Positions 10,123-29,718 of a stretch of DNA of 64,000 bases are shown here, one piece after another (positions within the stretch are counted from its first letter, which is position 1; each line of letters begins with the position of its first letter). The DNA lies in NCBI RefSeq assembly GCF_037996765.1, contig NZ_JBBNAD010000004.1, positions 310,001-374,000 on the forward strand, written 5' to 3'. The notes under the pieces are model-generated. The model saw only the letters and a list, made by a program, of their open reading frames with translations. It was not told where the DNA came from and searched no databases. The stretch comes from Bdellovibrio sp. GT3 (lineage in GTDB: Bacteria; Bdellovibrionota; Bdellovibrionia; Bdellovibrionales; Bdellovibrionaceae). Both the position numbers and the translations under genes were made by a program.

Positions 10123-10195
10123 TCAACTAATATAGACCGGTTTTCATTGAGCGTCACTGAGAGATTCGATAGAAATGGTCATGGAGGAATTTCCT

Positions 10196-10789
10196 ATGAA
10201 AATGATGACTAAGATTCTTTTGGTGGCTTTGGTTATGCCATTTCTGGCAGGTTGCGGGATTCAAAGCATCCCTCAATCCAAGAATGCAACGGAAGCGGCT
10301 TTGGCAGAGGTATCAAACCAATACAAACGTCGAGCTGATTTGATTCCTAATCTGGTGAACGTGGTTAAGGGTTATGCCAAACACGAAGAGACTACTTTGA
10401 CTCAAGTTGTGGAAGCACGTGCAAAAGCAACATCCATGCAAATTGATCCGTCTAAAGTGACGCCGGAACAATTGGCTGAATACCAAAAAGCACAAAGTGG
10501 TTTGTCTCAAGCTTTGGGTCGCTTGATGGTTGTTACAGAAAACTATCCTAACCTGAAAGCGGATCAAAACTTCCGCGATTTGCAGGCGCAATTGGAAGGC
10601 ACTGAAAACCGAATCACTATCGCTCGTCAGCGCTATATTGAATCGATCAATCAGTTCAACAACCTTGTGACAGTTCCGCCAACCAGCTGGACGAACTCGA
10701 TCATGTACCATTTCCCGAAAATGCCTCAGTGGGATATGACTGCTGAAGAAAAAGCAACTGCCGAGAAAGCTCCAGAAGTTAAATTCTAA
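10196..10789 (+). CDS. lemA: LemA family lipoprotein
   Basis: 197 residues. An N-terminal lipoprotein signal with lipobox LAGC is followed by the LemA helical fold: 'VSNQYKRRADLIPNLVNVVKGYA' near residues 40-62, then 'VVEARAKAT' and 'NRITIARQRYIESINQFNNLV'. LemA proteins are membrane-anchored helical bundles of unsettled role. They are nearly always beside TPM-domain proteins, as here. ATG 10196 is chosen over ATG 10175 because GGAGG at 10183-10187 gives ideal spacing. The stop overlaps the next start by one base (TAATG). Confidence 0.92.
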   Translation: MKMMTKILLVALVMPFLAGCGIQSIPQSKNATEAALAEVSNQYKRRADLIPNLVNVVKGYAKHEETTLTQVVEARAKATSMQIDPSKVTPEQLAEYQKAQSGLSQALGRLMVVTENYPNLKADQNFRDLQAQLEGTENRITIARQRYIESINQFNNLVTVPPTSWTNSIMYHFPKMPQWDMTAEEKATAEKAPEVKF

Positions 10790-11529
10790 TGAAGTTGTTA
10801 ACGTCGTTTCTTTTTTCAATATTGATGTTGCTGGGATTTGCCTCCCATGCTGAATTCAAGGTTCCTGCCTTGCAGGGGCCTGTGATGGATGAAGTGGGAG
10901 TGATTCCACGAAGCATGCGTCAAGACCTGACCCAATTGTTGATGGACTTCAACAAACGTGGAAAAGCACAGATTCAAATTCTGGTGGTGAACACCCTGGA
11001 AGGGGAGCCGATTGAACAGGCTTCAATCAAAATCACGGATCAATGGAAACTGGGCGACGAGAAAAAAGACAACGGGGTTCTCTTTCTGATAGCCCTTCAG
11101 GATCGACGGATGCGCATCGAAGTCGGACAAGGGCTTGAAGGCGCTATTCCCGACGTGTATGCAAAACGTATCATCGCCGATGTGGTGACGCCTTATTTCC
11201 GCAAACAACGATTTGCAGAGGGCATCTACGCAGGTGTGGGCCAGATCATGGCTCTGGCGGATAAAGAGTTTGCAGATGAACAAGGTATTACCACGGAGTC
11301 CAGAAAAGACGACAAAGGCGGAGGGATACCGGTTGGTATCATTATTCTTCTGTTGATCATCATTTCTGTTCTTGGACGATTCGGCGGAGGTCGCGGTCGT
11401 CATATGCGTGGATCGGGTGGCTTTGGCGGCGGCACTTTTGGTGGTGGCGGCTGGGGCTCCGGTGGCGGAGGCGGTTGGTCCGGCGGTGGCGGCGGATTCA
11501 GCGGCGGTGGTTCTTCGGGGTCATGGTAG
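10789..11529 (+). CDS. TPM-domain protein with glycine-rich tail (YgcG-like)
   Basis: 246 residues. Signal peptide (1-21), periplasmic TPM domain (~25-170, starting 'VPALQGPVMDEVGVIP'; 'IQILVVNTLEG' and 'DRRMRIEVGQGLEG' visible), then one TM helix (~180-200, IPVGIIILLLIIISVLG) and a cytoplasmic low-complexity Gly/Ser/Trp tail (GGGW-type repeats). The TPM fold is associated with acid phosphatase activity and photosystem repair in plants; the bacterial role is unclear. Translation is coupled to lemA. Confidence 0.9.
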   Translation: MKLLTSFLFSILMLLGFASHAEFKVPALQGPVMDEVGVIPRSMRQDLTQLLMDFNKRGKAQIQILVVNTLEGEPIEQASIKITDQWKLGDEKKDNGVLFLIALQDRRMRIEVGQGLEGAIPDVYAKRIIADVVTPYFRKQRFAEGIYAGVGQIMALADKEFADEQGITTESRKDDKGGGIPVGIIILLLIIISVLGRFGGGRGRHMRGSGGFGGGTFGGGGWGSGGGGGWSGGGGGFSGGGSSGSW

Positions 11530-11564: not shown

Positions 11565-12206
11565 ATGGCATGGATTAATAAATATCTTTCCGACAAAGAG
11601 ATTGCGCAGATTTCTGAAACCATTCACGTGGTCGAAGAACACACAGACGGCGAAATCGTTCCTGTGATTGTGAAGAGTTCCTCCTCTGTGGGGCATATTC
11701 CAATGACGTTAACGTTGTTACTGCTGTTGATACTGGTTATCGCAGAACTTCCATTTGCAGATTTGTTATGGACGACACCATGGGTGTATGTCTGGCCATT
11801 TTTAGTGGTGGCCGTTTATTATCTTTCTTTTGCATTGGCGCGAATTCATTTTATCCAGAAGATATTCGTACCTGAAAAGGACGAGCTTTCTCAGGTCCAT
11901 CAGCGCGCTCAATTGGAATTTTATCTTAATAAAATCAATCGCACTCAAAAAGGTACGGGTATCTTGATTTTCGTTTCTGTGATGGAAAGAAAAGCAGTGA
12001 TCCTGGCGGACGAAGGGATTAATAGCAAACTTCCTCCGGAAACCTGGAACGACGTTCTTGCCAAATTCAGTGAACAGCTGCACTCAGGAAGCTGGGCCCA
12101 GGGCTTCACCGTGGCCATAGAATCTTGTGGTAAACACTTGCATGAGCATTTTCCTCACACCGATGGCGGCCACAATCAGTTGAAAAACAATCTGGTGATC
12201 CGCTAA
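11565..12206 (+). CDS. TPM-domain membrane protein
   Basis: 213 residues. The N-terminal ~45 residues look like the start of a TPM domain (IAQISETIHVVEEHTDGEIVPVIVKSS), interrupted by two TM helices (~50-70, ~75-95). The rest of the domain follows (RTQKGTGILIFVSVMERKAVILADEGI). The same split-TPM arrangement is known in LemA-TPM-TPM operons. It lies 35 bp after the first TPM gene with a GGAGTGAG ribosome site. Its stop overlaps the convergent gene's stop. Confidence 0.85.
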   Translation: MAWINKYLSDKEIAQISETIHVVEEHTDGEIVPVIVKSSSSVGHIPMTLTLLLLLILVIAELPFADLLWTTPWVYVWPFLVVAVYYLSFALARIHFIQKIFVPEKDELSQVHQRAQLEFYLNKINRTQKGTGILIFVSVMERKAVILADEGINSKLPPETWNDVLAKFSEQLHSGSWAQGFTVAIESCGKHLHEHFPHTDGGHNQLKNNLVIR

Positions 12207-12655
12207 CTTGCCGGATAGGACGAGAACAATACAACTCGTTTCCCATCGTCAAGCTCAGCCGGACTGGTGAAAAGCCACGCGGTTTTTTCGGCCTTTTCCA
12301 TTTCCTTGCATTCATTGATGGCAAACTCTGCCGTTTTTTCCCCATTGCTGAAACACAGGACGCGACCGCTGAAGCCCAGCATCTGCATAATGATGGAAGC
12401 GTTCATGTTGGGAAATGTGAAAATAAATTTATGAGCATTTTTTGCGTCGTCTGCCACAAATTCGAAATCCGCAAGATTGCAGCCTTTTGGGATGGCCAGA
12501 AAAATTACATCGGGACGTGGTCGTTCTTTCAAGTATTCCCATTGATGAATGGCTTCGCAAAAGGCGTAGCTGGTTTCGCTTAACTTTTCCCATTCGGGGA
12601 TTTTATCTTTCCATACAGGTTCGGGGCGATTTTGAATTTCAATTTGAATTTTCAT
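12203..12655 (-). CDS. half-size ketosynthase-like protein
   Basis: 150 residues, third gene of a minus-strand group, starting inside the end of the ketosynthase-like gene (17-bp overlap, ATG 12655). I do not recognise a firm family. The segment 'FPNMNASIIMQMLGFSGRVLCFSNGEKTAEFAI' (positions ~80-112) resembles the strand around the N-terminal half of thiolase-fold condensing enzymes (Asn-Met-Ala-Ser ... Gly-x-x-Gly). The catalytic Cys position is not conserved and the C-terminal half is absent. It might form a heterodimer with its neighbour, which is inference. Similar truncated partners are known beside condensing enzymes in aryl-polyene-type clusters. Confidence 0.6.
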   Translation of the reverse strand: MKIQIEIQNRPEPVWKDKIPEWEKLSETSYAFCEAIHQWEYLKERPRPDVIFLAIPKGCNLADFEFVADDAKNAHKFIFTFPNMNASIIMQMLGFSGRVLCFSNGEKTAEFAINECKEMEKAEKTAWLFTSPAELDDGKRVVLFSSYPAS

Positions 12656-13796
12656 GATCGTTCTCTTCGATACCCACGGCGCAAGCGGCATAGATTCCGG
12701 TAAAGGCCAGTGTGGTCATTAATATTTGGCGAATTTTGGTGTCCGTACTCATGGCATCTGACGAGAGAAGATACCGGCCCTTGAGGGAGTCGTCCTTTTT
12801 ACTGGTGTTGTGAATTTTAAAAACTTTCTGTGTTTTCAGAATTTCACAGGCGGCGATAAGATCCATCAGGCCACAGGCACCCTCCGTGTTGCCAATACAC
12901 CATTTTGTCGAGGTGATTGGCACATCGGAATCTTTGATGAAATCCAGAAATTCAGTCAGAGCACGGTCCTCAGCGCTGTCGGAAGGCTTTGTTCCGGAGC
13001 CGTGAGCAAGAATAAGATCCGGGTGCAGGGGCGAGGAGGTGTTTAAGTCTTTAAGTGTTTCCAATAGTGCCTGACTGTCCAGGACAGGTGGAAATGTCGA
13101 TGAGCCCTGAGTTTTGGTGATGACGCCCAGTAATTTTATATCCTCGGCCGATTTGCGCTCCCGCGACAGCAGCACCATTCCCATGGCTTCCCCTAATTGC
13201 AGTCCATCCGCATTTTCTGAAAAAGGTCTGCATTTGGAGTGCGTCAGCAAATTCAAAGACTGATAACCCTTTTCCACAAACGGTCCAATAAGATCGCCGG
13301 AAACAATCAGCGCATATTCAGCGCGCTTGCTCGCAAACAGGTCCTGTGCGTATTCGAGGGCGGCGTGGCTGGAAATACTGGCGTTGCCAATGGAACAATC
13401 AAAAACCCACTCCAATTCCACTGCGTTTTCCTGGAAGTATTTTAGAATTTCAAAGTAGGGGTCGGGCAATTCACGAATGGTTTCAGGGGTGGCTTTCCAG
13501 ATGTAATCCTCCAGAGCTCCCTTGTTGGAGGCGAAAATCAGAACCACGCGCCCTTTGGTAAGGTCGGTGTAGGCTTCCTTGGATAAGCCTTCGCGTAGTG
13601 GAAAGATTAACTCCTTAAATGCATTTACGAAGATTTCAGTATAGCTGTGGAGCTTTCGTGGATCTTTATTGAGGTAGCAAATTCTGCCGCCACTTTCGCC
13701 GGCTGTCGAGCAATCAACTCCACCGTAAAGTGCCGTCATCATGGCAGGTGTGCCAGCACCTGCCGCAGTTATGCAAGAATAGTTTTGGATGTACAC
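12639..13796 (-). CDS. beta-ketoacyl synthase-like protein with altered catalytic residues
   Basis: 385 residues, thiolase-fold condensing enzyme. Recognisable: 'LIFASNKGALED' near the N terminus, 'SENADGLQLGEAMGMVLL' (normally DGFVxGEGAG), 'AHGSGTKPSDSAED' with the first catalytic His kept, and 'STKWCIGNTEGACG', where the second His of the usual KxxxGH motif is Asn. The nucleophile region reads NASISSHAA, so the usual Cys appears as Ser; a Cys occurs six residues earlier. It may act as a chain-length-factor-like or regulatory partner. The start is GTG 13796, set by GGAGG. It lies 20 bp after the secreted-protein gene. Confidence 0.78.
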   Translation of the reverse strand: MYIQNYSCITAAGAGTPAMMTALYGGVDCSTAGESGGRICYLNKDPRKLHSYTEIFVNAFKELIFPLREGLSKEAYTDLTKGRVVLIFASNKGALEDYIWKATPETIRELPDPYFEILKYFQENAVELEWVFDCSIGNASISSHAALEYAQDLFASKRAEYALIVSGDLIGPFVEKGYQSLNLLTHSKCRPFSENADGLQLGEAMGMVLLSRERKSAEDIKLLGVITKTQGSSTFPPVLDSQALLETLKDLNTSSPLHPDLILAHGSGTKPSDSAEDRALTEFLDFIKDSDVPITSTKWCIGNTEGACGLMDLIAACEILKTQKVFKIHNTSKKDDSLKGRYLLSSDAMSTDTKIRQILMTTLAFTGIYAACAVGIEENDHENSN

Positions 13797-13816
13797 ATGG
13801 CACCTCCAAAACGAGT

Positions 13817-14275
13817 TTATTTTTTCTTAATTTTATATTCAATTTGTCGTTTTACGGATTTACCAAGGTTTTCGCGAACGACGGCGAAGCTCAGAGTCCA
13901 TTGCTTTGCATCTGACTTATCCAGCGTGATTTCTTGTGATTCCTCACTCCAGTTGCTGGTATTTTTTCTTTTTGCGACAGATAACACAGAAACATCGTCT
14001 TCACTGGTGAATTTGTCATTAGCCATGACTTCAATGTTGTTGTTCACGATTTTTCCATCTTCAGATTTGAAGGTGAAGTTCACGGTCTCTGCATTTTGAA
14101 TTGAATCAATGCTGACTGACTTTAGTTTGCAATCCAATTGGAACGTTTGGCCTGCGCAACCAGTGATTTCGTAGTTGCCGAAATCAGACTTGAAAGGAAT
14201 CTGAGTTTTTTCTTTTTCGGCATGGGCCGCAAGTGTGATGGAAAGTATTGAGATAGTCGTCGCTAGTAGTTTCAT
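13817..14275 (-). CDS. secreted protein, unknown
   Basis: 152 residues with a clear signal peptide (cleavage after about residue 19, AHA). The mature protein is small and polar with a predicted beta-rich pattern and two Cys (~39, 48) that could form a disulphide. It ends in a very basic tail (IEYKIKKK). A good ribosome site (GAGGAG) precedes ATG 14275. It is first in a minus-strand group with the ketosynthase-like genes; whether it shares their function is not known. Confidence 0.75.
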   Translation of the reverse strand: MKLLATTISILSITLAAHAEKEKTQIPFKSDFGNYEITGCAGQTFQLDCKLKSVSIDSIQNAETVNFTFKSEDGKIVNNNIEVMANDKFTSEDDVSVLSVAKRKNTSNWSEESQEITLDKSDAKQWTLSFAVVRENLGKSVKRQIEYKIKKK

Positions 14276-14398
14276 GGCATCTCCTCTTTTTCCAGTATGG
14301 TGGACACGGTGGACAGAGGCTAGTCATTCTCAGGTTCTATTTAATTCCATGGAATATTTCCGAAATGTAATCAAACATTAGAAAAAAACGGAGAAGAA

Positions 14399-14767
14399 AT
14401 GAGTCATCAGGAGAGAAGGATGCCAATCGTTATTCGTAAATCAAATCAGGATGTTGGACGGGAATCCAACGTTGTTGACCTCAACTTTGTATCGAACAAA
14501 AGTGAGGTTCTGGAGGCGACACGCAAGAAGCTTGAAGAGATCTTGGTGTTGATTGTGGACCATCCAGAAGAAGTATCTGTCAACATTATGCAAGGTGAGC
14601 GCACGACCATCTTTAAAATCGAATGTTCGCGCAGGAACTTCGGTAGAATCCTGGGTTCCCGCGGAAAGATGATAGCTGGACTTCGCACGATTTCATTGGC
14701 GTTGACCGCACGTCACGGAATTCGCTCGATCGTTGAAGTCCCTTATTTCGCCGCGGAAGCTGGGTAG
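14399..14767 (+). CDS. KH-domain RNA-binding protein (KhpA-like)
   Basis: 122 residues. The C-terminal ~75 residues form a type II KH fold, with the RNA-gripping loop GSRGKMIAGLR at about residue 82-92 (GxxG). The N-terminal ~30 residues are a polar extension. KhpA-type proteins bind RNA broadly and affect cell size and sporulation or virulence in other phyla. ATG 14399 has GGAGAAG upstream; ATG 14420 is the alternative, also with a purine-rich site. The stop directly abuts the convergent secreted-protein gene. Confidence 0.85.
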   Translation: MSHQERRMPIVIRKSNQDVGRESNVVDLNFVSNKSEVLEATRKKLEEILVLIVDHPEEVSVNIMQGERTTIFKIECSRRNFGRILGSRGKMIAGLRTISLALTARHGIRSIVEVPYFAAEAG

Positions 14768-15457
14768 TTATTCAGCCTGCTCCATTGAACCTAAATTCAA
14801 AAAGTCAGAATTAGGAACGGGCATATCCAATAGCAAATATTCGATGACATCATCAATGGAACCATCAGTAGTTGCCAGCAAAGAAATCTTCTTGCTTAGA
14901 TATGCGCCTTCCAGACTGTAAGTGTTGCCGGATCTTTTGATGGCGACATCAATCCAGTAGCCATTCATGTAACCTTTGAACCAATACCCATCGTTCTTGC
15001 GGATCATATACAGGTCTGCAAGTTCATTTTTGAAGAATCCGGTCGCACGACCTTCTTTACGCTCCTCTGTCGGAACATCAATTCTTAAGGACGGGCGGTG
15101 GTTTTTGAAAACACCTTTAAACCAATGAGTTCCGTTATTCGTGTGCTCGATGGCAAGATCAACAGTGCGACCGTCCAATTGGCCTTGCACTGAAGTGCCG
15201 GAATTGCTTTGAGCAATATTCAGTGCCGTTGAGCCGTCAGCAGAAGAGATCGTGGACGTCGCAGCGTCTTTGTTTTGAATTTGTAGTTGTTTGGTAGTGC
15301 TGCCTGATTGCAGAGTCCAAGTCTGGCCTTGCTCAGTCGTATTGATTTGCCAGTTAATTTGATCAACGCCCCAGTTACCTTGAACGGTCGTTGTTGAAGC
15401 ATGAGTGGCTGTTGCAGTCAGTAGGGTCAGTGTAAAAAGGGACAATAGACTTTTCAT
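14768..15457 (-). CDS. secreted beta-rich protein, unknown
   Basis: 229 residues. The signal peptide ends about residue 20 (THA). The mature part contains many short Thr/Ser/Asn-rich strands and two similar segments around 'THWFKGVFKNHRP' and 'GYWFKGYMNGYW', suggesting an internal repeat of a small beta unit. The tail is acidic. No family recognised. A ribosome site (AAGGAG) precedes ATG 15457. It could be a surface or prey-interacting protein (inference from secretion only). Confidence 0.75.
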   Translation of the reverse strand: MKSLLSLFTLTLLTATATHASTTTVQGNWGVDQINWQINTTEQGQTWTLQSGSTTKQLQIQNKDAATSTISSADGSTALNIAQSNSGTSVQGQLDGRTVDLAIEHTNNGTHWFKGVFKNHRPSLRIDVPTEERKEGRATGFFKNELADLYMIRKNDGYWFKGYMNGYWIDVAIKRSGNTYSLEGAYLSKKISLLATTDGSIDDVIEYLLLDMPVPNSDFLNLGSMEQAE

Positions 15458-15720
15458 TTAAACTCCTTAATTAGATACCTGATAAGGCCTAGTCAGGAAC
15501 CCGAAAGGGGTCAATAAAATCCATAATTGACGTCGAAGTGGGAAGCTATTTGAAACTGCATGAGATTTGTGGACATTTCGATCTGTACGCAGTATTTGCT
15601 GCGCCGCGAATACGGAGGTCCCTCGTTAACTTTTTGTTCGGCATTGTTCTGGAGCACGAAATAATTTCGCAAATGTCATGGCAGTAAGTACAACAAGTTG
15701 TTCTATGCTATGGCATCCAT

Positions 15721-17058
15721 ATGAAAAGCTTTGCAAACACCATTCAAGATCTAATGAGTGAAATCACTGATGACGCAAACGTTGAGTCTGCCTGGCTGAC
15801 GGCAATGGCCCATATGGAACATCTGGCGGCCGAACAGATTCTGGGAAACATTTCACTATCAACGCCTGAGGAGTTTGTCGAAGAGATCAGGTCTCACGCC
15901 GGTGATGAATACCGTCACCGCGACGTGATCGCGCGAATTCGTCCTGTTCAGGAGCCTGCCAGCGAAGCGGAAAGAGATTTACGCACGCGCCTCTGTGCGA
16001 TGACGGAGTCCTTCACCAAAAGCTTTTTCGGAAATCCCGTGCTCTTGCAGGCCAACAACCGTTTCGCGGCCTATGTTCATGGCGCGATCACGATCGAACA
16101 GTTTCCGTTTCAGATTTACTCCTCCTACATTCCGGCGACTCGCTTCCCGCATATTCGTGAAGCCATGAGTGAAGTCTTAAAAGACGAGACGGCCCACATT
16201 CAGTTGGGAAAAAAGTTTCGTGAGTTATTGTCAGAGGAAGATCAATTGTCGTTGCAGCAATTGCAGCTGATAGAAAAAGAAATGTGCCGCTGCATGGTTC
16301 AGCGCATGACAGATCTGATTCGAATTTATAAAAAATCCCAAACAACACCGAACACTGGCAGTAAAGCCAGTACCAGACTGGCGTGGATGTTGGGGGAGCG
16401 ACCTGCTGCCACCGTGGCCTGGGTTCAGGCACTGAGTTTTTCTGAATCCAATGCAGCGATCCACATGCAGCGCGAATTCACCTCCCGCAATTTGCCATTG
16501 CCTGAGCAGATGCCTGCCCATGTAGAAGATGAAATGCGCCACGCGAAGCTTTTGCAACGTTCTGTTTTATTGGATCGTAGACGCTGGCTCGCGGTTCCTG
16601 GTTACAAAGAACTTGAACATCGTCTGAATAGAAAAATGGAAAGATATCTGGGACGATTCTTCAGTGCGCTGGTGCGTGAATTGAAGGACCCCGAGATGTT
16701 GTATTTGTACGGTGCCTGGGGGCTCGAAATGCGGGTTTTTAAACACTACAGCGAGTTGGTGAAGTGGACCGACAATGTCGGTGTCGCCTATATCGTTTCG
16801 CAGATTTTGGAAGACGAGGCCGAGCACACCCAGATGGTGAATGCCAGCCTTAATGAACGGAATATGCTCAACCCGGAAACTCTGAAATTTGTGCGCCAAA
16901 TGGAAGAGGAAATATTCGAGAGCACGGCCTCTGGTGTGATTCAAATTCTGCAGGAGTTCGATTGCAAGGATTCCTTCATGCCACCTTATGCAAAAGCCTT
17001 TTCCGCACTTCCGTCGGAATCAGTTGTCGCTGAACAAGTCGCAGTGATGGAGATGTAA
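15721..17058 (+). CDS. tandem ferritin-like di-iron protein
   Basis: 445 residues, two ferritin-like four-helix units. Unit 1 (~20-190) has helix-1 Glu in 'MEHLAAEQ', 'DEYRH', 'ITIEQF' and 'DETAH'. Unit 2 (~235-420) has 'FSESNAAIH', 'DEMRH', 'GLEMRVFKH' and 'DEAEH'. Each unit thus carries a full Glu/ExxH ... Glu/ExxH ligand set for a dinuclear metal site. Such sites serve oxidases or oxygenases (AurF-type N-oxygenases, UndA-like, rubrerythrin-like). The next gene (acyltransferase-like) starts 2 bp after the stop, so the two are almost surely one operon. The start ATG 15721 lacks a strong ribosome site. No family of exactly this duplicated shape is known to me. Confidence 0.75.
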   Translation: MKSFANTIQDLMSEITDDANVESAWLTAMAHMEHLAAEQILGNISLSTPEEFVEEIRSHAGDEYRHRDVIARIRPVQEPASEAERDLRTRLCAMTESFTKSFFGNPVLLQANNRFAAYVHGAITIEQFPFQIYSSYIPATRFPHIREAMSEVLKDETAHIQLGKKFRELLSEEDQLSLQQLQLIEKEMCRCMVQRMTDLIRIYKKSQTTPNTGSKASTRLAWMLGERPAATVAWVQALSFSESNAAIHMQREFTSRNLPLPEQMPAHVEDEMRHAKLLQRSVLLDRRRWLAVPGYKELEHRLNRKMERYLGRFFSALVRELKDPEMLYLYGAWGLEMRVFKHYSELVKWTDNVGVAYIVSQILEDEAEHTQMVNASLNERNMLNPETLKFVRQMEEEIFESTASGVIQILQEFDCKDSFMPPYAKAFSALPSESVVAEQVAVMEM

Positions 17059-17060
17059 TC

Positions 17061-17978
17061 GTGGCTACCGCATACATATTTCCAGGGTTGAACGCCCTGA
17101 TCAGAAAATCAGACCGCAATCGTTTTTCACATTTGCCGGAAGTGCAACAGTACTTTGCAAAAGCCGAAGACATAATTGCCACTCGCTTTGGCAGAACATT
17201 CAACTTCAAGGAGTTTTTGGAGCTGCCAACCGAAGAGATCTATTCCATTCAAAATATCAGCCTGGCTGCGGTGGCGATTTGCTGTATTCAAACCGGTGTG
17301 GCCGAGAGACTGCGGGAAAAATTGGGCGCATCACCGGATTGGGTGATGGGTTGCTCCCTAGGGGATCTTGCCCGTGCGGTATTTGCTGGTGCGTATAGTT
17401 TTGAGGACGCCATCTACAATCATATTTGGTTCACGCAAAGAATTGATGGGATCGATCAGATCGGTCGCAATATCGGTGTGCTGGCTCCTAAAGGGGATAC
17501 ATTTCAAGCCGATGACTATGCGTGGTTTGATGAAGTGCAGGTCGATGTTTCATGCCTGACGCCACGATTTTTGAATATCGGCGGACGTTATGCCGATTTG
17601 AAAAAAGTGGAAGAGCGTGCACGTGAGAAGGGTTGGAATACTATGAATATTTTAGATTATCCTGCCCATTCACGTTACATCCTGCCTTACGTCTTAGCGG
17701 TCCAAAGCGACTTTGCTCATGTCCGCACCCATACTCCTCAAATCCCAATTTTCTCAAGTTTAAGTGCTCAGGAATTGGTAGATCCGAAGATAATCAAAGA
17801 GGAGTTTCTTCTAAGTATTACACGCACTATTCACTGGTCTGAAGCAGTCCAGCGATTGGTTCGGGATAAGGGCATTCGCAAGTTCATTAATGTCGGGCCC
17901 TGCAGAAGTCTTTCCGGTCTGATGCGCGATATTCCTGTTGAAGTCGAGACCTGCGAGGCGTTTGAAGTTTTAGATTAA
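17061..17978 (+). CDS. malonyl/acyl-transferase-like protein (FabD fold)
   Basis: 305 residues resembling ACP S-malonyltransferase. 'FPGLNALIRK' at the N terminus corresponds to the usual 'FPGQG' region. The nucleophile elbow is GCSLGD (the usual GHSLGE with His replaced by Cys, Ser kept). 'PAHSRYILPY' holds the catalytic His, and 'FINVGPCRSLSGLMRD' is the C-terminal signature. Catalytic Ser and His are thus both present. It may load an acyl group to a carrier protein or directly to a substrate oxidised by the preceding di-iron protein; no ACP gene is visible nearby. GTG start at 17061. Coupled to the upstream gene. Confidence 0.8.
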   Translation: MATAYIFPGLNALIRKSDRNRFSHLPEVQQYFAKAEDIIATRFGRTFNFKEFLELPTEEIYSIQNISLAAVAICCIQTGVAERLREKLGASPDWVMGCSLGDLARAVFAGAYSFEDAIYNHIWFTQRIDGIDQIGRNIGVLAPKGDTFQADDYAWFDEVQVDVSCLTPRFLNIGGRYADLKKVEERAREKGWNTMNILDYPAHSRYILPYVLAVQSDFAHVRTHTPQIPIFSSLSAQELVDPKIIKEEFLLSITRTIHWSEAVQRLVRDKGIRKFINVGPCRSLSGLMRDIPVEVETCEAFEVLD

Positions 17979-18041
17979 ACTCGGATTTAACGCGAAGCCG
18001 ACGACATGCAAACTAGACTATAAAAAAAACCGGCAATTAGT

Positions 18042-19340
18042 ATGCTTATCTTCATGGGTTCTGAGTTTGTCGAAATCGATGGCGATGCACTGAAAGAGTT
18101 GTTGCGAAGCAAGCAACTGACGCGCTTTGATTTGGCTGCTCAACTGAGCGTTTCCACCAAAACAGTTCAGAGATGGTTGAATCACACCATCATGAAAGTG
18201 AAGCCCGAGACAGTTGAACGCATTGGTGGAGTTTTGGATGTTTGTCCATCGACGATTCGTCGCGACCTGCCTAATTTGAAAATCCGCCCGGTGAATAAAG
18301 CTCTGGCAGAGTTCTGCTCTGAAAAGCATTTCGATCAGACCAGGTTGAAGGATACCTGGTCCTCGTACCGCCAAGTTTTGAAGGGTGTGAAACTGGAGAC
18401 ATTGCCGTCCGAGCAGCAGATGGTTGTTTGCCGTAATATCGGCATCAGTTCTTTTTACCTGGGTAAGTTTCGATCAGCAAAACTGTATTTGAATAAGTCC
18501 TACAAGATTGCCGAAAGTCTTTCCAAAGATGAAATCCGCGCCAATATTCTGGTTTGGATGGCACGACTGAATGAAACGCTGGGGGAATTTCCCAAGGCAT
18601 TATCTGAATTGGATTCCTCTGCGGGTTTCTTTTCAGAAGAAACCCGTTTAAGTATCGTCGCGGAACACTCTTATGTGTTGGGCCGGGTGCACATGCATCA
18701 GGGAAAAAATGACGAAGCCATCCTGGAACTTCGCCGGGGAATTTTACTTTCCTATCAGCAGCGATCCCGCGATCTTGGACTCTTGATTGCGTGGTCCTAC
18801 GTCATGCTGATGTATATTTACCTTAGAGTTAAAGACTACTCTCAAGCTGAAGTGACCGTTCGTCGATTGAAGCGCACGGCGGAAATTCTGGGGTGGAGTC
18901 GGGGATTGCTTCTTACTAACTACTTTCAGGGAATGTTGGCAGTGTTCACCGGGAAAAGTGCTGAACAATCCCGCGAGTATTTTGGAAAAGCACGCGCCAC
19001 TCAACGTGCAAGTCAAATTGATCGATTCTGCCCGCAATTGGCTCAAGCTGAATTCATCTATTTTGTTTTGACCGGTCGCTATGACGAGGCCAGAGTGTCA
19101 ATGGTGCAGCGGCTCTATAAAACCCGCCACGCAACTCATCTCTGGGCAGCTGCGGTTTTGGATGGGGTCCTTTTGGCAAAAGTCCATCCGGGTATGAATA
19201 CAGTTCGTGCCAGTATGATTGCTGCCGCAAAAGAGCATTTCGAATTACATCAAGTGCAACGTCCTCTGCAGTTGCTGGAGCAGTTGCAAAATCGCTCTGA
19301 AGTTTCCATTCAGGAAGTTTCGGACTTCTATTATTTCTAA
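18042..19340 (+). CDS. HTH-TPR transcriptional regulator
   Basis: 432 residues. The N terminus holds a XRE-like or Hom_end-type HTH (~10-60; 'LTRFDLAAQLSVSTKTVQRWLN'). The rest is a run of TPR-like helical hairpins (~100-420; 'ISSFYLGKFRSAKLYLNKSYK', 'GRVHMHQGKNDEAILELRRG', 'MLMYIYLRVKDYSQAEVTVRR'). The plan resembles Rgg/PlcR-like peptide- or ligand-binding regulators, with the sensory part in the TPR region. It is 63 bp downstream of the acyltransferase-like gene on the same strand and may control the locus (inference). An alternative start is ATG 18054. Confidence 0.78.
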   Translation: MLIFMGSEFVEIDGDALKELLRSKQLTRFDLAAQLSVSTKTVQRWLNHTIMKVKPETVERIGGVLDVCPSTIRRDLPNLKIRPVNKALAEFCSEKHFDQTRLKDTWSSYRQVLKGVKLETLPSEQQMVVCRNIGISSFYLGKFRSAKLYLNKSYKIAESLSKDEIRANILVWMARLNETLGEFPKALSELDSSAGFFSEETRLSIVAEHSYVLGRVHMHQGKNDEAILELRRGILLSYQQRSRDLGLLIAWSYVMLMYIYLRVKDYSQAEVTVRRLKRTAEILGWSRGLLLTNYFQGMLAVFTGKSAEQSREYFGKARATQRASQIDRFCPQLAQAEFIYFVLTGRYDEARVSMVQRLYKTRHATHLWAAAVLDGVLLAKVHPGMNTVRASMIAAAKEHFELHQVQRPLQLLEQLQNRSEVSIQEVSDFYYF

Positions 19341-27010: not shown

Positions 27011-27138
27011 GGCGGGTAAAGCGTTCATTGTGCCGTTCCAGATAAATACTTTAAACTGTCTGGGCTCGTTATGAGGGTGGAAAATATTGGCCCGGATTTC
27101 GCTTTAGTCTTTTTTGCATTTTTAGCTTGGAGACTTTT

Positions 27139-27969
27139 ATGAAACTGTGGGCTTTGTTGCCGGTGATGCTTTTAGTGGCTGCCTGCTCCCCCAAAAATTC
27201 AGGTCCAGTGCCCGTGGCGCAGGAAAACAGAATCATCAATGGTAAGTCCGTGGATCGTGACAGTACTGTCGCGAATGCAACCGTTGCCCTGATGCTTGCT
27301 GATGGTGATCGTATCAGAACGGTCTGTACGGGAACCTTGGTTTCCAAGGACTTGGTGGTGACTGCCGGGCATTGTGTGGAGCCGATGTATTCTGGTTATG
27401 AAATGGTTGTTTCATTTGGACCTGAAACTTACACCTCCAAAAATGAAGGCGATTTGCGCGAGATCGACCGCGCCATTTCCTATGACTATATGACTCCGCC
27501 AGTGGGCGAGAGCCATACCAGATCCATTAACGAACTTCGTGATGTTGCATTGATTAAGCTGCGTACGTCAGCACCCAAATGGGCCGTTCCGGTTCCAATT
27601 CTTGGATCTGAAGCTGGCTTGCAAATGGGGCAGTCTGTATTGCTTGCGGGATTCGGCCGTACCAATGAATTCGTAAGTGCGATGTCCACGCATTTGCAAA
27701 GCACGCATGTGGATATTGTCAGTGTTGAAGACAGAAAAATCACAGTGGACCAATCCAAAGGAACCGGCGCTTGCTGGGGTGATTCCGGTGGGCCGGCGTT
27801 TCTGGAAACGGATCGCGGTCTGGTTGTGATTGGTGCGACAAGCGGTTCCGCTTACGGATCCGTCGATTGTCACACCAAAGTGGTCTATGCCTCTTTGCCG
27901 GGATTTAAAGAGTTCCTGCAAAAAGTGGCGACGGTACTGGGCGGAGAGCCGCCCGTTTTTGTTGAATAG
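27139..27969 (+). CDS. trypsin-like serine protease, lipoprotein 1
   Basis: 276 residues. Lipobox VAAC (~14-17), an activation-type 'RIINGKSV' motif, and the triad in 'TAGHC', 'DVALIKL' and 'GDSGGP'. Family S1A (chymotrypsin fold). The Asp in 'GTGACWGDSGGP' fits the trypsin/chymotrypsin oxyanion context. First of three tandem copies with identical layout. Start ATG 27139 with GGAG ribosome site. A secreted, membrane-anchored protease of this type fits predation on prey proteins (inference). Confidence 0.92.
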   Translation: MKLWALLPVMLLVAACSPKNSGPVPVAQENRIINGKSVDRDSTVANATVALMLADGDRIRTVCTGTLVSKDLVVTAGHCVEPMYSGYEMVVSFGPETYTSKNEGDLREIDRAISYDYMTPPVGESHTRSINELRDVALIKLRTSAPKWAVPVPILGSEAGLQMGQSVLLAGFGRTNEFVSAMSTHLQSTHVDIVSVEDRKITVDQSKGTGACWGDSGGPAFLETDRGLVVIGATSGSAYGSVDCHTKVVYASLPGFKEFLQKVATVLGGEPPVFVE

Positions 27970-28001
27970 AAAAATTAGGTAATTTAGTAAGGAACGTAAA
28001 G

Positions 28002-28829
28002 ATGAAGAAACTAATGATGATCCCACTGTTGGCTTTGGCAGCGTGTACTCAAAACAATGTCGCAGAGACGTTAAAAGTCGATGCAGCCAACAAATCGCAA
28101 ATCATCAACGGAGAAAATGTGACCGCGAACGAAATCTATGCGGAATCTACAGTGTCTTTGCTGGGGCGGAACCCGCGTGATGGCAGCGTCATGTCATATT
28201 GTACCGGGACGTTGATTTCCCGAAATTTGGTTGTCACTGCCAGCCACTGTACTCAGATGCTGGAGCGCGTGCAGACCAAGATCTTCTTTGGAACAGAACT
28301 GCCTGAATCTTTCGAGGATGCCAATGCGATTGAAATTGAAGAGGCGATCAGTCACCGTAATTTCGGAGTGAACTCACGTACAGAGCGTTCAGAGTACGAT
28401 GTCGCCGTGATTAAACTTGTGACGGAGGCACCTGCCGGCTTCAAACCAGTTGCAATCCTGAACAATGTAAAAAAATTGAAAGCCGGCATGCCAATGACTC
28501 TTGTCGGTTGGGGGCGCATGTCTGAAACTGAAAATATCAAGACCGTGACAATGCAAAAAACCGTGGTCGAGATTGCACAGGTTCGCGATCAAGAGGTCGT
28601 GACTGATCAAACTCGTGGTTCTGGTGCATGTAACGGGGATTCGGGTGGTCCCGGCTTTATCGAAACGTCGATGGGTTTGATCCTGGCGGGGGCTACTCGT
28701 GGACCTGAGTCAGGCTATGAGGATTGCCACCATTATGGCAACTACACCTTGTTGGTGAACTATAAAGACTTTTTGAACTATGCCGCTCAAACCATGGAAG
28801 CGGACTACCCACAATTTGTGAACTACTAA
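28002..28829 (+). CDS. trypsin-like serine protease, lipoprotein 2
   Basis: 275 residues, second of the tandem set. Lipobox LAAC, 'QIINGENV' motif, triad 'TASHC', 'DVAVIKL', 'GDSGGP'. Cys pattern similar to the first copy. AAGGAA ribosome site. Sequence is diverged from copy 1, so the duplication is not recent. Confidence 0.92.
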   Translation: MKKLMMIPLLALAACTQNNVAETLKVDAANKSQIINGENVTANEIYAESTVSLLGRNPRDGSVMSYCTGTLISRNLVVTASHCTQMLERVQTKIFFGTELPESFEDANAIEIEEAISHRNFGVNSRTERSEYDVAVIKLVTEAPAGFKPVAILNNVKKLKAGMPMTLVGWGRMSETENIKTVTMQKTVVEIAQVRDQEVVTDQTRGSGACNGDSGGPGFIETSMGLILAGATRGPESGYEDCHHYGNYTLLVNYKDFLNYAAQTMEADYPQFVNY

Positions 28830-28851
28830 CCTTAAAGTGGATTTGACTATA

Positions 28852-29718
28852 ATGAAGAATCTGTCGCTGGGAATTTTATTGCTTCTTGCAGTCGGGTGTT
28901 CGCGCCCGCAGGCGCCGGATATTATTCAAACTCAAATCCACAATAATGCCATCATCGGAGGGGAGCCAGTCACAGCTGACAGCTATGCGCGCTCTGCAAC
29001 TGTTGGTATTTACTATCGTGGTTCGGTGGCATGCACCGGGGTGTTGATTTCCAAAAATCTGGTGATTACAGCAGCTCATTGTGTGAAATGGGTGAATGAC
29101 GTCCAAGTCGGTTTCGGCGAAGCGATTCTGCCGGCAGATCAATTGAAGAATGTGGCTCATATCATTCCGCATCCTGATTTTGAGATTGTGAATGTCGAGA
29201 TTCCAGGGAACACAACAGAAACACACGTCACTTCACAGAAAGACGTCGCTCTGTTGATGTTGGCAGAAAATGCCCCTGCCGGGTTCGTACCTGCAGTCAT
29301 TCATGCCGACACCGACAGTATTCCTTTGCAGAGCACTTTGTTATTGGCAGGCTTCGGTCTGACTGACGATATGACTCGTGAACCAGCGAAATCCCTGCTT
29401 CAGGTTGAAGTGTCTTTGTTCAATTTGATTGATGACTACCTGGTTTTGGATCAAAGAAACGGAAAAGGGGCGTGCTTCGGGGATTCCGGCGGGCCTGCTT
29501 ACTTGGCTGATTCTGGGAATTGGTATGTTGTGGGTGTCACTCATGGCACTCGTCCCGGATATACGGATTGCAGTCATGAGACGGACTATACAAGTCTGTC
29601 GAAGCATATGAAGTTCATCATGGAGACAGCCGATCTTATCGGTGCCGAACTACCTTATTTTGGCCTTCCATTGCCACCAGCTGCTACGGCCGTTCAGGCC
29701 CCTTTAGCAGCCCAATAA
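28852..29718 (+). CDS. trypsin-like serine protease, lipoprotein 3
   Basis: 288 residues, third tandem copy. Lipobox AVGC, 'AIIGGEPV' motif, triad 'TAAHC', 'DVALLML', 'GDSGGP'. ATG 28852 is preferred to a TTG at 28837. C-terminal Ala/Pro-rich tail is unique to this copy. Confidence 0.9.
   Translation: MKNLSLGILLLLAVGCSRPQAPDIIQTQIHNNAIIGGEPVTADSYARSATVGIYYRGSVACTGVLISKNLVITAAHCVKWVNDVQVGFGEAILPADQLKNVAHIIPHPDFEIVNVEIPGNTTETHVTSQKDVALLMLAENAPAGFVPAVIHADTDSIPLQSTLLLAGFGLTDDMTREPAKSLLQVEVSLFNLIDDYLVLDQRNGKGACFGDSGGPAYLADSGNWYVVGVTHGTRPGYTDCSHETDYTSLSKHMKFIMETADLIGAELPYFGLPLPPAATAVQAPLAAQ

Follow-up and report, generated by a model that had tools for sequence, protein, structure and literature searches.

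What does the stretch of Bdellovibrio sp. GT3 DNA presented above code for between its TPM-domain gene and the end of its HTH-TPR gene: one locus or two? The window (the whole 64,000-nucleotide stretch, positions 310001-374000 on contig 4 of a 3.58 Mb genome that is 99.97% complete) carries there a ketosynthase-like gene with a small overlapping partner, a gene for a double ferritin-like di-iron protein, an acyltransferase gene and a gene for a protein with helix-turn-helix and tetratricopeptide repeat motifs (HTH-TPR). The initial annotation suggested for them a short pathway that makes and oxidises an acyl product. The five open reading frames (ORFs) are confirmed at the positions it gave, as is the gap between the di-iron and acyltransferase genes (Table 1). 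Comparison with other genomes makes it likely that two unrelated units lie side by side: an in-place remnant of an aryl-polyene-type pigment-lipid cluster, formed by the minus-strand ketosynthase pair, and a conserved di-iron/acyltransferase pair that probably acts on an acyl thioester. The genomes compared are 118 at the order level for protein searches, 143 at the class level for the di-iron profile search and 24 of the genus.

The nearest orthologues of the ketosynthase (56-57% identity) are found, in the 118-genome search, in G065, G078 and G090, three members of the same genus. In these genomes the ketosynthase and the small overlapping partner are embedded in a large cluster whose ORF order is the same in all three, as read over 20 kb around each. 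Domain families were tested on the G090 proteins, the G065 and G078 clusters being assigned by their common ORF order. The G090 cluster codes for an aromatic ammonia-lyase (PF00221, E 5e-137), an AMP-binding ligase, an ApeI-like dehydratase, a PP-binding acyl carrier protein (ACP), two further ketosynthases, a Ketoacyl-synt_2 protein whose best match is chain A of 7f28 (E 2.6e-4), an O-methyltransferase, a short-chain reductase, an MMPL-type exporter and glycosyl/acyltransferases. One cluster end is bordered in the three relatives by homologues of the window TPM gene and of the genes before it. The other end is bordered by a homologue of the gene at 13817-14275 in all three and of the gene at 14768-15457 in two, and synteny with the window extends on both sides of the cluster. 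The GT3 remnant has the flanking genes of the full cluster and an altered active site, and the cluster is absent from this place. Among the 24 genus genomes, that of GT3 is the only one that has the ketosynthase pair without the cluster.

Searches of the whole GT3 genome with other cluster proteins agree with this picture. The ApeI-like protein has no match at E 1 (none of the 14 control genomes reached the cut-off of this search either), and the ApeC-like protein has none in a search that had no positive control and shows little. The clear matches to a cluster ketosynthase are only FabF, coded by a fabG-acpP-fabF operon that is read from the ORFs elsewhere in the genome, and the remnant itself, one additional match being insignificant at E 0.04. 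The sole match to the ammonia-lyase is a histidine ammonia-lyase.

The arrangement of a ketosynthase followed by an overlapping half-size partner is that of ApeO-ApeC of aryl polyene synthesis, and the best two matches of the ketosynthase family among solved structures, 7f28 and 6qsp, are both ApeO-ApeC. In PMC8358021, the aryl polyene chain length factor is described as a single thiolase fold about half the size of its ketosynthase, which explains why the half-size partner had looked odd. The window differs from ApeO-ApeC in that no other cluster genes are found in it, the catalytic Cys and second His are replaced, and the small partner matches no Pfam family even at E 10 (4/4 members tested). 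In addition, the clear ApeC-like protein of the cluster is another one, coded beside another ketosynthase. The small partner probably starts at the ATG at position 12655, a start shared by the three nearest relatives, so that its overlap with the ketosynthase is 17 nucleotides and not 53. Its homologue directly follows the ketosynthase in the eight cluster genomes read, overlapping it in some and lying a few bases after it in others. Size and position fit a half-size chain length factor. Profile comparison with the half-size ApeC-like protein of the cluster is not significant (E 0.53), and a PDB sequence search gave one chance match only. The hhalign comparison of nine members yields P 0.066 against the ApeC-like set and P 0.0023 against full ketosynthases, which is suggestive of a kinship of the small partner to ketosynthases at the level of profiles. 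The gene announced by the initial annotation as a half-size ketosynthase-like partner is therefore real and overlaps the ketosynthase, its likeness to ketosynthases falling short of demonstration; it codes for a second small protein of the cluster, distinct from the ApeC-like one.

The ketosynthase matches both Pfam domains (Ketoacyl-synt_C, E 3e-11; ketoacyl-synt, E 1.3e-8) and the alteration of its catalytic residues, noticed earlier, holds against 8/8 aligned relatives. The changes are C140S and H303N, with H265 retained. The Cys-His-His triad of ApeO-type enzymes is thus incomplete in the window protein and present in its three nearest orthologues. Among the 65 columns invariant in the eight relatives, 16 are changed in the window, including C140S, H303N and two positions of a glycine-rich loop close to the protein end (G364A, G366T). 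In a leave-one-out control the relatives change 0, 0, 1, 6, 3, 8, 10 and 8 of 65-75 invariant columns, a rough yardstick given that the eight differ in closeness. The alignment with the three nearest orthologues is gapless over its 385 columns; the G006 ketosynthase is not part of it and enters the eight-relative comparison with its frame ended at its stop. Nonsynonymous divergence (dN) reaches 0.37 between the window gene and its relatives and only 0.11 when G090 is compared with G065. Window-specific changes reach 0.32 and 0.19 per site at first and second codon positions, compared to 0.11 and 0.04 in the TPM gene. Because the catalytic Cys and the second His are gone, the protein is unlikely to function in chain building and, judged by its residues, has probably lost the ability to condense acyl units.

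The other genes of an aryl-polyene-type cluster would thus have been lost from this place, rather than gained by the relatives, and the minus-strand pair left behind. The pair may be a fairly recent leftover or may be kept for a non-catalytic role. Several points count against a simple remnant. The flanking genes at 13817-14275 and 14768-15457 change as fast as the ketosynthase pair (dN 0.32-0.38), so the faster change of the pair is not on its own a proof of release from a pathway. The searches of the GT3 genome covered four other cluster proteins and not every cluster gene, two of them without a good positive control. The intact frames of the pair also argue against plain debris, and they lend some weight to an alternative whose chances are slightly below even: the ketosynthase remnant could be retained as a non-catalytic protein, for example a binder of acyl groups or ACP, with a new role taken up after cluster loss. 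Both frames are open and there is no indel over 385 codons despite the high dN. In neutral simulations the ketosynthase frame remains stop-free in 0 of 2000 runs at ~199 changes (the excess as estimated by hand, 0.23 per site), in 0.7% at 87 and in 10% at 43, the value for the small partner being 1.35%. As stop-free outcomes are this rare, the ketosynthase frame was probably guarded by selection during at least part of its history. A recent loss or an excess smaller than estimated would require no selection, however, and the pair without cluster occurs in GT3 alone among the genus genomes. The minus-strand pair is a clear example of a cluster that probably eroded in place, in which a broken ketosynthase active site goes with an intact frame.

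The second unit is of a different nature. The two-domain di-iron profile detects 22 of the 143 class genomes at E 1e-5. Fourteen matches are strong: 12 come from the 24 genus genomes and two from a different genus of the family. The 12 genus genomes are also those with strong acyltransferase matches, and the acyltransferase gene directly follows the di-iron gene in 14/14 strong cases, window included; that of G037 is in two frame-split pieces (L062:10674-11670, +), due to a frameshift or an assembly error. The pair is found in about ten different neighbourhoods among the loci listed, as read from ORF lists, and the lists read around the acyltransferase feature neither a polyketide synthase nor a fatty-acid operon. 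The di-iron and acyltransferase genes together form a conserved, operon-like unit. In G099 and G036, an acyltransferase of this type is the partner of a single-domain di-iron protein. On the metagenome-assembled contig L070, 1.7 kb separate the pair from TPM-domain genes; this interval contains two small ORFs but lacks a ketosynthase, so closeness of the pair to the TPM place does not need the cluster. Note that the LemA-like/TPM-side place holds, according to species, the full polyene-type cluster, the remnant or the di-iron/acyltransferase pair (L070:749-6150), as if it were a favoured site.

Other genes accompany the pair in some genomes. In G090, G078, G037 and G020 these are genes of the YqcI/YcgG and DUF1989 families (L055:7471-8771, -; L056:7231-8531, -; L062:8036-9341, +; L063:10584-11889, -), identified by family tests in G090 and by eye in the others. 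In G074 and G106, which belong to a different genus of the family, the end of the acyltransferase gene is overlapped by a Coq4-like gene (L065:11465-12130, +; L072:11843-12532, +; family tested in G074), and the second ligand set of the di-iron protein is gone.

The double ferritin-like architecture proposed for the di-iron protein is borne out by its ligands. These are E33, E63, H66, E126, E156 and H159 in domain 1 and E242, E271, H274, E336, E366 and H369 in domain 2, the six positions being invariant in 15/15 domains compared. The predicted model (pLDDT, the predicted local distance difference test, 84) is all-helical with two di-iron ligand sets. Foldseek finds no match at E <= 0.001 to the whole two-domain model, and VIA-align was therefore used for a second look. 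The nearest folds to the model of domain 1 are MiaE (Z 16.2, 176 residues, 2.6 Å) and, tied with it, a protein with aldehyde-deformylating activity (Z 15.9, 169 residues, 2.9 Å), both at low identity (14-20% in the top rows). The di-iron profile aligns with 5k52, used for comparison with aldehyde-deformylating oxygenase, at E 0.0012 and over profile positions 113-170 only. An acyl-ACP reductase was not noticed beside the di-iron gene, though no search was made for one.

The six-ligand pattern agrees with that of BioE (E26, E53, H56, E125, E155, H158, in PMC12915131), a di-iron oxygenase that according to the same paper converts long-chain acyl-ACP to a pimeloyl thioester; the comparison is by published positions and of the pattern alone. 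A BioE would be expected as a single domain in a biotin operon or a biotin-making genome, while the window protein has two domains, is paired with an acyltransferase and occurs where no biotin synthase passes its cut-off. For assignment to BioE, PMC12915131 applies a limit of at least 40% identity to EmBioE. Eight weak single-domain relatives of the di-iron protein are found in other families (E 4e-9 to 9e-6 per genome). Five of them are, as would be expected of BioE, beside bioA, bioB, bioD or bioF (G081, G091, G097, G138 and G025; same strand and adjacent except in G097), two are those beside an acyltransferase in G099 and G036, and the eighth, in G089, lies on a 6.6 kb contig that shows no biotin genes and no acyltransferase. 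Note that bioF scores below the NCBIfam cut-off in three loci, where it is nevertheless the best model of that gene; the NCBIfam scan of the single-domain relatives themselves, made on seven proteins of which one was in fact a BioD, gave nothing useful.

The same trail yields BioE candidates beside bioA, bioB, bioD or bioF in families related to Bdellovibrio: L110:1252-1869 (-), L100:1495-2127 (+), L106:9657-10334 (+), L107:9628-10260 (+) and L108:8122-8778 (+). The families listed for bioE in section 2.1 of PMC12915131 do not include relatives of Bdellovibrio, and the word Bdellovibrio is absent from that paper.

The acyltransferase matches Acyl_transf_1 in the Pfam scan, which gives the di-iron protein only sub-threshold ferritin-like matches. 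Its whole fold is that of FabD (Z 32.8, 290 residues, 2.1 Å) and of the acyl hydrolase PksD (Z 29.7 over 289 residues). The Ser and His reported as kept are indeed so, S99 (in GCSLG, where FabD has GHSLG) and H203 being conserved in 9/9 and 5/5 aligned sequences of two sets. The FabD substrate Arg, which binds the malonyl carboxylate, is missing. Its place is taken by Phe124, which faces Arg in 2cuy, 3tqe and 3im8, the 3ezo alignment having an insertion there; it is Phe in 9/9 of one set, Phe in four and Tyr in one of five in the other, and Gln in PksD.

A FabD fold that keeps Ser and His and has Phe for Arg, together with an oxygenase-type partner, suggests action on a non-malonyl acyl thioester, whose oxidation is the likely role of the pair. 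The acyltransferase would use Ser99/His203 to transfer a non-malonyl acyl group from one thioester to another, and the two-domain di-iron protein would oxidise the acyl chain by hydroxylation, desaturation or cleavage; both the acyl-thioester substrate and the action in sequence are proposed from these features. Of the short acyl-making and oxidising pathway suggested initially, this is the part that finds support, in the conserved unit, the predicted folds and the active site. Tentatively, and with less confidence than is given to the oxidising role, the pair may be a separate acyl-thioester oxygenase system in predatory bacteria, in which an oxygenase of BioE-like type, duplicated and no longer tied to biotin synthesis, works with its own non-malonyl acyltransferase for the loading or unloading of the chain. 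Such a system would give an oxidised or shortened acyl product (a lipid part or a signal) not yet known from Bdellovibrio, and known uses of BioE-like di-iron oxygenases would be extended if the pair acts on acyl chains. Some evidence tempers this assignment. A Z of ~16 is little above the chance level for helical bundles, so the fold taken by itself counts for little. G049 has a second acyltransferase copy (68%) without a di-iron neighbour (L125:8132-9088, +), and the distant acyltransferase of one further genome, G061 (24%), likewise has none. Neither a substrate nor an electron donor or carrier protein can be assigned to the pair. What connects the di-iron protein with BioE is the ligand pattern, the neighbouring genes and low-scoring profile matches, not a BioE sequence. 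A literature search joining Bdellovibrio bacteriovorus, ferritin-like and acyltransferase returned nothing.

Two other roles for the products of the pair were considered. The di-iron protein might be an iron store, an encapsulin cargo or another non-oxygenase ferritin-like protein, as its matches to the rubrerythrin, EncB and ferrit_encaps models, all weak and below cut-off, would have it. This is improbable in view of the tight pairing with the acyltransferase gene and of the nearest folds, which are the oxygenases MiaE and cyanobacterial aldehyde-deformylating oxygenase, Dps and bacterioferritin ranking lower (Z 13). Still less probable is a service of the pair in biotin (pimeloyl) synthesis, to which the reaction of BioE and the biotin genes adjoining single-domain relatives in other families would point. 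BioB passes its cut-off in 0/24 genus genomes (weak matches in six), so the pair is probably not for biotin, and a direct biotin role is rejected on this ground. No bio genes are seen beside the pair, and a metabolic model of B. bacteriovorus requires external biotin, according to PMC7529429. A pair perhaps related to a recently described biotin route is thus present in half of the genus genomes examined, where no biotin synthase is seen.

That the ketosynthase pair, di-iron protein and acyltransferase form one pathway making and oxidising one acyl product can hardly be upheld, although their genes lie within 6 kb in GT3 and have folds that handle acyl thioesters: the halves share three genomes and are adjacent only in that of GT3, being 1.9 Mb apart in G090 and 1.7 Mb in G078; the small partner is absent from 9 of the 12 genus genomes that have the di-iron/acyltransferase pair and present in three, GT3 included; G065 has the ketosynthase without the di-iron gene; and the ketosynthase catalytic residues are lost. 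The neighbourhood test set beforehand largely refutes the joint pathway, and with it the assumption that both halves belong together; a link new to this one species remains conceivable. Removal of this false pathway leaves in its place two testable statements, a cluster remnant and a conserved pair that may act on acyl thioesters.

The HTH-TPR gene had been taken for a regulator of the locus. The protein and its place just downstream are confirmed, but it is not a conserved partner of either half. Its closest orthologues, 47% identical in G078 and G090, are located near neither half (in G078 the distances are ~1.2 Mb to the di-iron gene and 0.5 Mb to the ketosynthase cluster), and its candidacy as a dedicated regulator is rejected. 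The G078 orthologue and a KH-domain-like gene are direct neighbours (L127:6185-7933); the window counterpart of the latter at 14399-14767, the one tested for the domain, is 3.3 kb from the HTH-TPR gene. The partner of the HTH-TPR gene may thus be the KH gene and not the di-iron pair.

Table 1. Features of the window around the ketosynthase remnant and the di-iron/acyltransferase pair.
Feature	Position	Strand	Remarks
More genes of the TPM-side flank	10175-11529		Homologues beside the full cluster in relatives
TPM-domain gene, flank of the presumably lost cluster	11565..12206	+	Homologues border the full cluster in G065, G078 and G090
Small partner of the ketosynthase	12203..12655	-	150 aa from ATG at 12655; longest ORF extends to 12691
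Ketosynthase remnant	12639..13796	-	385 aa, GTG start, frame intact
Small protein, opposite flank of the presumably lost cluster	13817..14275	-	Ends 20 bp before the ketosynthase start
Further flank gene	14768-15457		Homologue at the cluster border in 2/3 relatives
Two-domain di-iron protein	15721..17058	+	Two ligand sets of six
Acyltransferase, FabD fold	17061..17978	+	2 bp after the di-iron gene; S99/H203 kept, Phe124
HTH-TPR protein	18042..19340	+	63 bp past the acyltransferase; neighbour, in neither conserved unit

Elsewhere in the window, positions 27127-29718 carry three paralogous genes in tandem, and a similar row is found in each of three relatives.

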